Shown here piece after piece: positions 56,752 through 60,723 of a DNA stretch of 64,000 nucleotides; the stretch's first letter is position 1, and each line of letters opens with the position of its first letter. The position numbers and the translations under genes were made by a program. Source of the DNA: Stappia stellulata DSM 5886 (GTDB taxonomy: Bacteria > Pseudomonadota > Alphaproteobacteria > Rhizobiales > Stappiaceae); contig NZ_AUIM01000010.1 of the NCBI RefSeq assembly GCF_000423705.1, positions 248,001-312,000 of the forward strand. The letters are read 5' to 3'. The notes below the pieces were generated by a model that ran no database searches, was not told where the DNA came from, and saw nothing but the letters and a program-made list of their open reading frames with translations.

Positions 56752-57885
56752 GTGAGAACAAAAAATATTTGCGATCCAAAGCATACACTACTGGCTCTGC
56801 TTCTCCTGTCGCTCGCGCTGTTTGCACAGCCCGTCGAAGCCGGCAGCGTGTCCGGCGACTACTGGACGCTACACGAGTTCCATGACCGCGATCCGCACGA
56901 AGCCTCCGTCGCAAAGCGCTTCGCCAAACGCGTCGCCAACCCCGCCGAAGCGGCACCGGCCGCGTTCGAAAGACCGGTGCGCATCGTCGTCGTTTATCCC
57001 GGTGTGCAGACCTCCGATTACTGGCGTCGAAGCGTTCTTTCGCTTCAGTCCCGGCTGCGCGAGATCGGCGTCCCGCATGAAATCGATTCGCATTTCACGC
57101 GCCCCGGAACCGAGATCCGCGAGCAGACACGACTGATCTCGCAAGCGCTGACGCACGACCCCGATTATCTCGTCTTCACGCTCGATGCCTTTCGCCACCG
57201 CATCATTGTCGAACAACTCGTCGCCGCGGGCCGGCCCAAGGTCATCCTGCAAAACATCACGACCCCGCTGCGCAGCTGGGAACGGGCGCAGCCGTTCTTT
57301 TACGTCGGTTTCGATCACAGGGAGGGGACCCGGCTGCTGATCGAGCACGTTCTCGCGGACGACAGACCCGACATGAACGACTTCGCCATTCTTTACGGCC
57401 CTCCGGGCTACGTCAGCAGCGCGCGCGGCGACAGTTTCCGCGCAGCCCTTGCCAAGCAAGCGGACAAGCGGCTCGTGGCCTCCTACTACGTCGGTTTCAA
57501 CCGGGAGAACGCGCGCGCCGCGACCCTCTCCCTCATGGAGACCAACCCGGAAGTCGACTTCATCTACTCCTGTTCAACCGATATCGCGCTCGGCGTAATC
57601 GACGCGATCGACGCTCTCGGCTTGCGCGGGAAGGTGCGAACCAACGGCTGGGGCGGCGGCAGTCAGGAACTTGCGGAGATCGCCAGCGACCGGCTCGCCT
57701 TCACGGTCATGCGCATGAATGACGACAACGGCGTTGCCATGGCGGAGGCAATCGCGCTCGACCAGCTCGGTCGTCAGGAGGAGGTGCCGCTGGTGTATTC
57801 CGGCGATTTCGTCCTGGTGACGCAAAACCACGACGCGGAAAGGATTCAGTCCCTGAAGAACCGCGCGTTTCGCTATTCGCAATGA
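56752..57885 (+). CDS. luxP: Periplasmic AI-2-binding protein, LuxP homologue
   Basis: A 377-residue exported binding protein very similar to Vibrio harveyi LuxP along its whole length. The signal peptide ends near VEA (residue 30). Residues corresponding to the known AI-2 borate-diester contacts are all present: Q86, S88 and W91 (VQTSDYW), N168 (LQNITTP), R225 (SARGDSF), S275/T276/D277 (CSTDIALG), W300 (NGWGGGS) and R321 (VMRMNDD). The start is GTG at 56752 with a weak ribosome site. The stop overlaps the next gene (ATGA). The assignment rests on my memory of LuxP; the ligand is inferred. Confidence 0.9.
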   Translation: MRTKNICDPKHTLLALLLLSLALFAQPVEAGSVSGDYWTLHEFHDRDPHEASVAKRFAKRVANPAEAAPAAFERPVRIVVVYPGVQTSDYWRRSVLSLQSRLREIGVPHEIDSHFTRPGTEIREQTRLISQALTHDPDYLVFTLDAFRHRIIVEQLVAAGRPKVILQNITTPLRSWERAQPFFYVGFDHREGTRLLIEHVLADDRPDMNDFAILYGPPGYVSSARGDSFRAALAKQADKRLVASYYVGFNRENARAATLSLMETNPEVDFIYSCSTDIALGVIDAIDALGLRGKVRTNGWGGGSQELAEIASDRLAFTVMRMNDDNGVAMAEAIALDQLGRQEEVPLVYSGDFVLVTQNHDAERIQSLKNRAFRYSQ

Positions 57886-60641
57886 TCAAGGGGTGGGCAT
57901 TCAGCTTCAACCGGTTCGTGCTTGGCCTGTTTGCCGTGGCCTTGCTAACGACGTCGGCTGCCCTGTTTTCCATCAGCTACATCGGCAGTCTTTCGATTGC
58001 GGACCGCGAATTGCAGCGTTTTGCCGCAAAGGAAAAAACGCTGGCAAATCTGGTTTTCGACCAGACGCTGGACCGCCTCGACACCTTCATGCACTCGCTC
58101 GCGGAAAACCGCACCTTGCAGGAGGCCATGCGCGCGGCGGACGACACCGCGCTTGAACGGCTCCTGGAGGAGACGGCCGTTCACCCGATCGGTGCACGGC
58201 TGGAGCTGCTGTACCTGGATCGCGAAAACAGCGTCGACTGGATCGATGCCGGATTTTCCCTCTTCGACATCAGCGCGATCCTGCCGCCGAAACAGCGCGC
58301 GATGATGCCGACCGGCATCTGGCAACTGCATTCCGGCAGTCTCAACGGCCAGCTCACCCTGATTGCGGCCGAAGCGATTCCGGTCGTGGACGACCGGGAC
58401 GGTCGGGTGCTCGGCCGTATCATCGGCGGTTTCGTCCTCAACGACAGCATCTCGCTGCTTGGCGAGCTGTCGCGCGTGCTAGAGGCGGAGAGCCTCGCGC
58501 TCGTCTCCCGAGAGCGGATCATCGCCGCCGTCGGGGACATCCGCCAGGCGGTCGATCCCGGTGAACTCAGGACCGCGCTTGCCAGTCAGAACCACACGCT
58601 GATCGGCGATCGCCTCTATATCCGCAGCACGCTGCGGCAAGACGTCTCCGGCGCGCCGACGTTCGTCGTGACCGGACGCCGCGGCGAAACCATCGAGAAC
58701 ATCCAGTCCACATATCTGGATCTCTTCACACCCTTCCTGCTCTATGTGATCGCGGGATCTCTGTTTGCCGCCTATGCCCTGCACCGCGTCACCAGCCCGG
58801 CGCTGCAACGGCTTCTCTCCTATGCCAACCTGGTCCGCAGCGGCGCATCGGACATGACCTACCATCCAGGAAAGGTGAAAGAGTTCAACAAGCTCGGCAT
58901 CGCTCTCCAGGACGCCTTTCAAGAACTCAAGGAAACCGACGCGCAGTTTCGCGGATTGATCGACGGCTCGCTGCATGGAGTCAGCATCCATGCCAACCGC
59001 AAGATCCTCTATGTCAATGACGCCCTTCTCGACATCCTCGGATACGAAAGCGAAGATGCCCGGCACGAACTCATCGGCGCCTCCGCAATCCGTCTCTTCG
59101 CGCCGGAGGAACATGAGCGTCTTCTCGCCTATTACAAGGCGCGGCTTTCGGGCGTCTCGGTGCCGTCCGTCTATGAAGCACGCGGGCTGTGCAAGGATGG
59201 CGAGCGTCTGTGGGTCGAGCTGCATGTGCGCCCGATCCGCTGGAACGGCGAAGCTGCCTTCTATGTCACCATCGCCGACATTTCCGAACGCAAGCGCCAG
59301 GAAGAGCTGATCATTCGCCAAGCCAATTTCGACAGCCTGACCGGCCTTGCAAACCGCAATCTGTTTCGAGACCGGCTGGTCCAGTCGGTTGCCCGGGCGC
59401 AATGGGGCGGCGGACTCGTCGCCCTGCTCTTTCTCGATCTCGACCGCTTCAAGAACGTGAACGACAGTCTCGGCCACAATGCCGGCGACGAGCTGATCAA
59501 GGCGACCGCCGCACGCATCACCGCCGTGCTCGACGACAATGACACCGTCGCACGGCTCGGCGGAGACGAGTTCGGAATTATCCTGACGGAGGTGCGCAGC
59601 GTTTGGGATGCAGAATTGCGGACCGCGCGAATCCTGAAAGCCATCGCCAAGCCGGTGCTCGTGGGAGCCGGCCTGGAGGTCTTCACCACCGCCAGCATCG
59701 GCGTCACCGTGTCGCCCAATGACGGCGACACCGATGAAGCGCTGCTCCGCCAGGCGGATACGGCCATGTATCATGCCAAGGCGGAAGGCGGGAACAAGCT
59801 GCGGTTTTTCTCCGGCCAGATGAACGAACACATCGCCCGCACGATGCAGATCGAAGGCGCGCTGCGCCGGACCCTCGAGAAAAACGGCCTGAGCCTTCAC
59901 TACCAGCCCGTGGTCGACGTGACGCAGAACAGAATCCTGGGCTGCGAGGCGCTGGTGCGCTGGAACGATCCCGAGACGGGAAGCTACTCGCCAGCCGAAT
60001 TCATTCCCATTGCCGAAGACACGGGTCTCATCGTTCCCCTTGGCGCATGGGTGCTGGAAGAGGCCTGCCGGTTTCACCAGGCCTGCGCGGCGCGCGGCCT
60101 GGTCCTGCCGATGATCAGCGTGAACGTCTCGCCGCGCCAGTGCCGCGACGACAACTTCGTCGAGCTGGTGCACGATACGCTCACGCGAACCGGAATGCCC
60201 GCGGAGTATCTGCATCTGGAAATCACCGAGAGCGTGATGTTCGACGAAACCGGCTCCGATCCGATCGAGACACTGCACGCCATGAAGACGCTCGGCGTGC
60301 GTCTTTCGCTCGACGATTTCGGCACGGGCTACTCGTCGCTGAGCAACCTCAAGCGCTTCCCGATCGACACGCTGAAGATCGACCGCACCTTCGTGCGCGA
60401 CCTGGAGACCAACAGCGACGACAGGGCGCTGATCGAGGCCATCGTGGTCATGGCCGCCCGCCTCGACATACAGGTGATTGCCGAAGGCGCGGAAACCGAT
60501 GGCCAGTGCCGCCTTCTGCAATCGCTTGGCTGCACGGACATCCAGGGCTATTACATCGCCCGGCCGATGCCGGCCGAGGAATTCGAAGCCTATCTGGACC
60601 ACGAAACGGCAATCCGGGCGCGCGTGGGCGGAACCGCCTGA
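57882..60641 (+). CDS. LuxQ-like membrane sensor fused to PAS, GGDEF and EAL domains
   Basis: A 919-residue inner-membrane protein. TM1 (about 12-35) and TM2 (about 281-303) bracket a periplasmic region resembling the LuxQ sensor, including GRVLGRIIGGFVLNDSISLL. A short linker and PAS domain (about 353-472) follow, then GGDEF (active site GGDEF at 560-564) and EAL (CEALVRW, E689). EAL catalytic residues (N748, D811/D812, K832, E868) are in place, so both synthesis and breakdown of cyclic-di-GMP are possible. The inhibitory RxxD site is lost (D551 in the Arg position). ATGA overlap with the LuxP-like gene. Confidence 0.93.
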   Translation: MIKGWAFSFNRFVLGLFAVALLTTSAALFSISYIGSLSIADRELQRFAAKEKTLANLVFDQTLDRLDTFMHSLAENRTLQEAMRAADDTALERLLEETAVHPIGARLELLYLDRENSVDWIDAGFSLFDISAILPPKQRAMMPTGIWQLHSGSLNGQLTLIAAEAIPVVDDRDGRVLGRIIGGFVLNDSISLLGELSRVLEAESLALVSRERIIAAVGDIRQAVDPGELRTALASQNHTLIGDRLYIRSTLRQDVSGAPTFVVTGRRGETIENIQSTYLDLFTPFLLYVIAGSLFAAYALHRVTSPALQRLLSYANLVRSGASDMTYHPGKVKEFNKLGIALQDAFQELKETDAQFRGLIDGSLHGVSIHANRKILYVNDALLDILGYESEDARHELIGASAIRLFAPEEHERLLAYYKARLSGVSVPSVYEARGLCKDGERLWVELHVRPIRWNGEAAFYVTIADISERKRQEELIIRQANFDSLTGLANRNLFRDRLVQSVARAQWGGGLVALLFLDLDRFKNVNDSLGHNAGDELIKATAARITAVLDDNDTVARLGGDEFGIILTEVRSVWDAELRTARILKAIAKPVLVGAGLEVFTTASIGVTVSPNDGDTDEALLRQADTAMYHAKAEGGNKLRFFSGQMNEHIARTMQIEGALRRTLEKNGLSLHYQPVVDVTQNRILGCEALVRWNDPETGSYSPAEFIPIAEDTGLIVPLGAWVLEEACRFHQACAARGLVLPMISVNVSPRQCRDDNFVELVHDTLTRTGMPAEYLHLEITESVMFDETGSDPIETLHAMKTLGVRLSLDDFGTGYSSLSNLKRFPIDTLKIDRTFVRDLETNSDDRALIEAIVVMAARLDIQVIAEGAETDGQCRLLQSLGCTDIQGYYIARPMPAEEFEAYLDHETAIRARVGGTA

Positions 60642-60693: not shown

Positions 60694-60723
60694 AAAAAGC
60701 CGGGCTCGAGAGCCCGGCTTTTT
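60694..60723. terminator. Bidirectional terminator between the sensor gene and pnp
   Basis: A perfect 13-bp stem (AAAAAGCCGGGCT arms) with loop CGAG, ending in T runs on both strands. It lies between two convergent genes. Confidence 0.9.

Follow-up and report, generated by a model that had tools for sequence, protein, structure and literature searches.

A LuxP-LuxQ-type gene pair with PAS, GGDEF and EAL output domains in Stappia stellulata, a candidate receptor linking extracellular AI-2 to cyclic-di-GMP

We analysed a stretch of 64,000 nucleotides (the window) from the genome of Stappia stellulata DSM 5886 (4.6 Mb in 12 contigs, 100% complete), in which two overlapping genes encode a LuxP-type periplasmic binding protein and a membrane protein that resembles LuxQ in its periplasmic part and carries PAS, GGDEF and EAL domains behind it. 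We propose, with a probability of roughly two in three, that this pair is a two-part receptor for extracellular autoinducer-2 (AI-2) from other species that sets cyclic-di-GMP (c-di-GMP) directly. Both open reading frames (ORFs) of a preliminary description of the sequence, and the ATGA that they share, are present at 56752-57885 and 57882-60641 (Table 1).

The upstream gene had been described as LuxP over its length, and this is borne out: in a phmmer search against the Protein Data Bank (PDB), four LuxP sequences match it with E-values of 7.6e-90 to 2.9e-89 over residues 33/37-376, whereas the next-best family, that of sugar-binding proteins, begins at 1.7e-15. Pfam reports Peripla_BP_4 and a weak Peripla_BP_1 alone. 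An AlphaFold model of the protein (confidence score pLDDT 89.6) superposes on the AI-2-bound LuxP structure 1jx6 with a root-mean-square deviation (rmsd) of 1.5 A over 341 columns and a template-modelling (TM) score of 0.96 to the target, and ranks 1-8 of the structure search are all LuxP chains, so that the failure to superpose on LuxP, named earlier as a refuting result, did not occur. A tree of 94 rows places the window protein among 89 LuxP-type rows, with five distant cousins set apart (support 100, with a long-branch warning).

The ten residues of the binding protein that the preliminary description had named as AI-2 contacts (Table 1) align, in the same order, with Q77, S79, W82, N159, R215, S265, T266, D267, W289 and R310 of the V. 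campbellii LuxP used as reference (L018), among which we take S265, D267 and W289 to be further residues of the AI-2 pocket. In the order given, these letters are kept in 87, 88, 90, 89, 89, 70, 89, 87, 90 and 89 of 90 LuxP-type rows, which include the window and two Vibrio and from which nine duplicate loci of already included genomes had been removed. Q77, S79, W82, N159, R215, T266 and R310 are listed as forming hydrogen bonds with AI-2 in 1JX6 (PMC9687752; papers are cited here and below from excerpts). The match of all ten thus stands, but it is less specific than the phrase 'every contact residue' sounds, because the five distant cousins (L107 to L111; 28-32% identity, about 30%) share six or seven of these letters, with S79, W82, R215, T266 and R310 kept in 5/5 and N159 and W289 in 4/5. 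All five have D or E at position 77 and A at 267, and four have N at 265. On this alignment Q77 and D267 are the letters that separate the LuxP type from the distant cousins, and the window protein has both. The cousins, two of which (L109 and L111, from other genera) adjoin ABC (ATP-binding cassette) ATPase and permease ORFs as read by eye, are possibly a separate sugar family that could be mistaken for LuxP in name searches.

The claim of a LuxQ-like periplasmic region in the second protein was confirmed by the profile check, in which residues 38-249 match Pfam LuxQ-periplasm (PF09308) at 56.4 bits (cut-off 25.7). In NCBIfam LuxQ_Vibrio, positions 23-387 of the model align with residues 27-391 of the protein at 99 bits, far short of the model's full-length cut-off of 1200, and a search of the PDB matches the membrane protein to LuxQ 3c30 at an E-value of 1e-7. 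A structure model of residues 1-323 (pLDDT 84) finds LuxQ structures at PDB ranks 1-6, with TM scores of 0.77-0.80 to the target, followed by chemoreceptor and other dCache domains. A periplasmic region that does not fold like LuxQ, the second refuting result proposed earlier, was therefore not seen either. The output is a different matter, as had also been described: the histidine kinase and receiver of LuxQ were not found, and Pfam assigns PAS, GGDEF (7e-44) and EAL (5e-71) in their place, so that the protein is LuxQ-like at its input only. The GGDEF motif is not preceded by an RxxD inhibitory site, as we take that site to be defined. All 19 proteins compared, namely the window protein and the products of 18 of 19 GGDEF-EAL loci (L020, with an X in its sequence, was excluded), have an intact GGDEF motif and unaltered EAL residues at every position examined. 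With its catalytic residues in place the membrane protein, whose EAL domain is among 18 matched in this genome, is predicted to be a bifunctional enzyme. The pair shares with Vibrio LuxPQ the ten pocket residues, the LuxQ-type periplasmic domain, the luxP-luxQ gene order and the predicted folds, but differs from it in having PAS-GGDEF-EAL where Vibrio has HisKA-HATPase-receiver, and in a genome in which no luxS was found.

From these likenesses we infer AI-2 as the ligand and a complex of the two proteins. The LuxP-type protein would close on AI-2 in the periplasm, probably on its borate ester as in Vibrio, while seated on the LuxQ-type domain of its membrane partner. Binding would rearrange the complex, and this change, relayed by the second membrane helix and then the PAS domain, would reach GGDEF and EAL and shift the balance between synthesis and degradation of c-di-GMP. 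That this change would be direct is suggested by the intact active sites. The direction of the response can be argued by analogy both ways. When LuxP of Vibrio carries AI-2, LuxQ changes from a kinase into a phosphatase (PMC3386761), and in NspS-MbaA the binding protein switches a GGDEF-EAL enzyme between synthesis and breakdown of c-di-GMP (PMC8967002). Our guess leans very slightly towards a ligand-bound receptor that favours breakdown, as the LuxQ ligand switches off the kinase mode; the opposite sign, synthesis on ligand, would follow from the MbaA analogy.

Whether the organism makes AI-2 itself or senses its neighbours had been left as a question, and the search for luxS favours the second answer. 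The gene was found neither in the genome of S. stellulata, where a system sensing its own AI-2 would have it, nor in 60 relatives (0/61), while 5/14 control genomes were positive. We also scanned GTDB genomes with peptide patterns from the window LuxP, keeping 80 of 86 relatives, and searched for luxS in 77 distinct genomes behind all but two of these 80 loci, many of them metagenome-assembled genomes (MAGs), with taxa grouped from record titles. Genomes with LuxP of this type carry luxS in 26/27 Gammaproteobacteria, 9/9 Campylobacterota and 2/9 Desulfobacterota (one partial), and it was found in 0/27 Alphaproteobacteria (six of the same genus) and 0/5 others. Alphaproteobacteria use SahH and are without luxS (PMC524169, PMC2561040). 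With luxS not found in Stappia, the AI-2 would be supplied by other species and the receptor would be listen-only; the same applies to the alphaproteobacterial receptors at large, which, if they sense AI-2, sense only the signal of others.

The pair is a regular possession of the genus. Our relative set comprised 61 genomes, that is, the own genome and 60 relatives, including 14 of the same genus and six of another genus of the family (g2). PF09308 is present in 17/61 (16 over the cut-off), distributed as 14/14 in the same genus, 3/6 in g2 and 0/41 in the others, and the same 17 genomes were returned when the periplasmic region of the window protein served as the query. LuxP stands directly upstream of the LuxQ-type gene, with the same 4-base overlap, in all 14 same-genus genomes, and the spacing recurs in five Labrenzia/Roseibium-type loci (L026-L030). 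An even draw of the class gave LuxP at an E-value of 1e-70 in 8/385 genomes (own included), and an even draw of the phylum gave PF09308 at 0.001 in 16/398 (14 over the cut-off). Eight of the latter matches fall in a single genus, and at each of its eight loci LuxP has a kinase-like ORF as neighbour; outputs in the phylum draw were read from motifs, except for nine proteins that were scanned further.

Several observations weigh against an AI-2 receptor. The membrane protein has 12-18% identity to solved LuxQ, and its TM scores by query length, membrane helices included, are 0.51-0.56. In three g2 genomes (G030, G036 and G033; L100, L101 and L102) a LuxQ-type GGDEF-EAL gene is kept beside dapB as an orphan receptor half, with periplasmic-domain scores of 24-38 bits versus 37-71 in Stappia, and LuxP was not found at these loci or, at an E-value of 1e-30, elsewhere in the three genomes. 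One genome of the same genus (G001; loci L013 and L103; 89% complete, 7% contaminated) has a pocket changed at N159, R215, T266, D267 and R310 (pattern QSWGQSSEWP) in a LuxP that lies on a long branch, beside a full-length LuxQ-type gene, which may reflect a change of ligand, decay or a poor assembly. This changed pocket and the three genomes in which LuxP was not found imply that AI-2 input is dispensable in the kin. At two loci (L147, L148) a TctC-type binding protein, not LuxP, precedes a LuxQ-periplasm-PAS-GGDEF-EAL protein, so that the LuxQ-type domain alone does not mean AI-2, and it may serve other binding proteins too. Finally, AI-2 is not alone in acting on Vibrio LuxP: L-xylosone and L-xylulose do so too, most effectively when boric acid is present (PMC12921845).

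This last point bears on the principal alternative, in which the machine is the same but its ligand, instead of AI-2, is a sugar in borated or furanose form (L-xylulose, for instance, or a compound made by algae or a host). We regard it as unlikely, though as a possibility to be taken seriously: PDB entry 4yr7 is, by its title, LuxP with a borated deoxy-xylulofuranose, the LuxP fold family binds sugars and luxS was not found in the own genome, but the pocket agrees with Vibrio LuxP at all ten residues, those two among them that differ in the cousins, and luxS in 26/27 of the gammaproteobacterial genomes with this LuxP type means that there, at least, AI-2 is at hand. A relic, in which the receptor is decaying and signalling has been lost, is improbable. 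The orphan LuxQ-type genes of g2 and the changed pocket of G001 are what such decay would look like, but the window has an intact pocket and both catalytic domains intact, and the pair is present in 14/14 same-genus genomes.

Still less probable is a binding protein that serves an ABC transporter and neighbours the c-di-GMP gene by coincidence. Three other Stappia genomes encode LuxP-like proteins of about 33% identity, and these, like the ABC genes beside cousins L109 and L111, could be read in this way; against it, no transporter gene is seen near the pair among the flanking ORFs read by eye (the neighbours were not profiled), the overlap with a LuxQ-type gene holds in 14/14 same-genus genomes, and the tree sets the cousins apart, with the support and warning given above. 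An ABC sugar receptor was accordingly dropped, on the flanking ORFs and the cousin comparison. Polyamine sensing of the NspS-MbaA type seems to us the least probable of all. The preliminary description had called NspS-MbaA the nearest known layout, and the likeness holds, a periplasmic binding protein acting in V. cholerae on a membrane GGDEF-EAL protein that makes and degrades c-di-GMP (PMC8967002), with a further NspS-MbaA system reported from the alphaproteobacterium S. meliloti (PMC9993111). The polyamine-type binding protein, however, has no counterpart in the window, where Peripla_BP_4 and LuxP are matched and no polyamine-binding family occurs among the Pfam and PDB matches, and a polyamine receptor was dropped on these grounds.

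The layout is not unique to S. stellulata. By record title, the 80 loci of our survey belong to Alpha- and Gammaproteobacteria, Desulfobacterota, Campylobacterota, a Magnetococcales MAG, Bacteriovorax and Denitrovibrio. The adjacent partner is a histidine kinase in 35, a GGDEF-EAL protein in 19, GGDEF alone in two and a SpoIIE phosphatase in one; a further five partners have LuxQ-periplasm and PAS only and three LuxQ-periplasm only, eight loci have no such partner that we could find, six are cut by a contig end, and at one a GGDEF-EAL gene without a LuxQ-type match lies 606 bases off. These proportions are biased, since the survey started from peptide patterns of the window protein. Partner classes were assigned from regular-expression motifs and then checked by Pfam for all 35 kinase and 19 GGDEF-EAL partners; the scan did not extend to L079, whose partner has the periplasmic domain only, or to the partnerless loci other than L058. 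LuxQ-periplasm was found in 26/27 kinase partners scanned as a batch (two Vibrio included) and in 10/10 scanned singly, one of them below the cut-off.

On the LuxP tree, all GGDEF-EAL rows from Stappiaceae group in a single clade of 18 (support 99) beside alphaproteobacterial kinase rows, and two more GGDEF-EAL groups are both gammaproteobacterial. The GGDEF-EAL label requires five changes on this tree, three of them forced by starred branches, and some may be losses of the catalytic part. A tree of the GGDEF-EAL halves is compatible both with a single origin in the alpha- and gammaproteobacterial systems and with more than one (support 62); this tree and that of LuxP (from which L020 was left out) were both built quickly, and each has open forks and a long-branch warning. 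Across 64 systems that differ in output, LuxP distances and LuxQ-periplasm distances correlate with r = 0.83, where 1000 permutations reached 0.09 at most, and with 0.42 in remote pairs. Such a correlation is expected of two parts of one unit, and shared ancestry accounts for some of it. We hold it slightly favoured that LuxP-LuxQ did not arise as a speciality of Vibrio and is a widely held plug-in sense organ for AI-2, whose output has been switched more than once among histidine kinases, enzymes of c-di-GMP and a SpoIIE phosphatase. In the luxS-less Alphaproteobacteria it would serve for eavesdropping alone, and in Stappia it would act on c-di-GMP with no phosphorelay between.

LuxP outside Vibrio has been known for some time, although two papers of 2025 call it exclusive to Vibrio (PMC11796354, PMC12503165). 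A note of 2008 reported homologues in Oceanospirillales and deltaproteobacteria, some of which, in Neptuniibacter, Marinomonas and Desulfuromonas, lie beside PAS-containing proteins (PMC2561040), and a paper of 2025 counts 267 LuxP proteins in RefSeq, of which three were tested and all bound AI-2 (PMC12268683). Likewise, AI-2 acts directly on c-di-GMP enzymes in the YeaJ/GAPES1 and dCache_1 receptors (PMC12268683, PMC11796354), but there the membrane protein itself binds the ligand, LuxP is absent and the AI-2 form is non-borated or unsettled. A table of 2016 lists 115 LuxQ-periplasm proteins, of which 112 are kinases and one is a c-di-GMP enzyme (PMC4822843). The new part is thus the LuxPQ input rewired to c-di-GMP: in the accessible text of the open-licence PubMed Central literature we found no description of such wiring, or of an alphaproteobacterial LuxP.

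If the pair is indeed an AI-2 receptor, the AI-2 of neighbours may become a direct sit-or-swim decision in a marine bacterium. AI-2 as a true interspecies signal is disputed because receivers are few, and a conserved LuxP without luxS makes a clean case, in which any response to AI-2 must be to others. A direct c-di-GMP output would also allow the response to be tested without the metabolic side effects that luxS mutants bring, and the LuxPQ input, with its range of outputs, offers ready-made chimeras for studying how one periplasmic binding protein can control kinases as well as cyclases. In V. parahaemolyticus, ScrB and ScrC combine a binding protein with a GGDEF-EAL receptor as in the window, with a different signal and binding protein.

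Table 1. Features of the LuxP-LuxQ-type gene pair and its surroundings (window coordinates)
Feature	Position	Strand	Basis
LuxP-type periplasmic binding protein gene	56752..57885	+	377 aa, GTG start; PDB LuxP E ~1e-89; model on 1jx6 rmsd 1.5 A
Probable signal peptide, ~residues 1-30	56752..56841	+	by eye: charged start, leucine-rich stretch, VEA end
Ten putative AI-2 pocket residues, span	57007..57714	+	Q86 S88 W91 N168 R225 S275 T276 D277 W300 R321; alignment to Vibrio LuxP
ATGA start/stop overlap of both genes	57882..57885	+	ORF coordinates; spacing repeated in related loci
LuxQ-like membrane protein gene, PAS-GGDEF-EAL output	57882..60641	+	919 aa; Pfam and NCBIfam profiles
First membrane helix, ~residues 9-35 (start of predicted helix 9-74)	57906..57986	+	hydrophobic stretch and model
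LuxQ-type periplasmic domain PF09308, residues 38-249	57993..58628	+	56.4 bits, cut-off 25.7; fold ranks 1-6 LuxQ
Long helix, second membrane segment and cytoplasmic stalk, residues 269-319	58686..58838	+	model
PAS domain (PAS_9), residues 372-469	58995..59288	+	Pfam
GGDEF domain, motif GGDEF intact at residues 560-564	59322..59798	+	Pfam and alignment
EAL domain, examined catalytic residues all present	59859..60566	+	Pfam and alignment
Terminator-like hairpin, 13 pairs, between the pair and opposing pnp	60694..60723	+	5 such sites in region against 3.9 expected by chance; weak alone

The pair lies between dapB and pnp, both on the opposite strand (ORFs read by eye), and a sigma-70 promoter scan of the region gave zero candidates on the + strand. 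On the dapB side, the only one compared, the upstream neighbours are alike in L020, L021 and L026-L030, judged by ORF length, and in L100-L102, where the sequences were read.

The survey yielded some minor observations. In a Desulfococcaceae record (L054:7158-9392) a LuxQ-periplasm-PAS-SpoIIE phosphatase fusion adjoins LuxP. The partners at eight loci of Oceanimonas, Oceanisphaera and Marinobacterium (L050, L056, L057, L060, L073, L069, L079 and L087) end after the PAS or periplasmic domain, and an output domain was not found in them (for L079, judged by length and motif only). Motilimonas eburnea has two LuxP-type genes on one contig (L058 and L091), with no adjacent LuxQ-type gene found and a LysR-type gene next to the partnerless L058; Psychromonas likewise has two (L094 and L095), with no adjacent LuxQ-type gene found. 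A recent plasmid origin of the window pair was considered and rejected, a search of a plasmid collection at an E-value of 1e-30 having returned six records, all from Vibrio, and the neighbours on the dapB side being alike in the related loci named above. A luxPQ pair does occur on an 83-kb plasmid of Vibrio fluvialis (L019; NZ_AP028132.1), which its record types as mobilizable.

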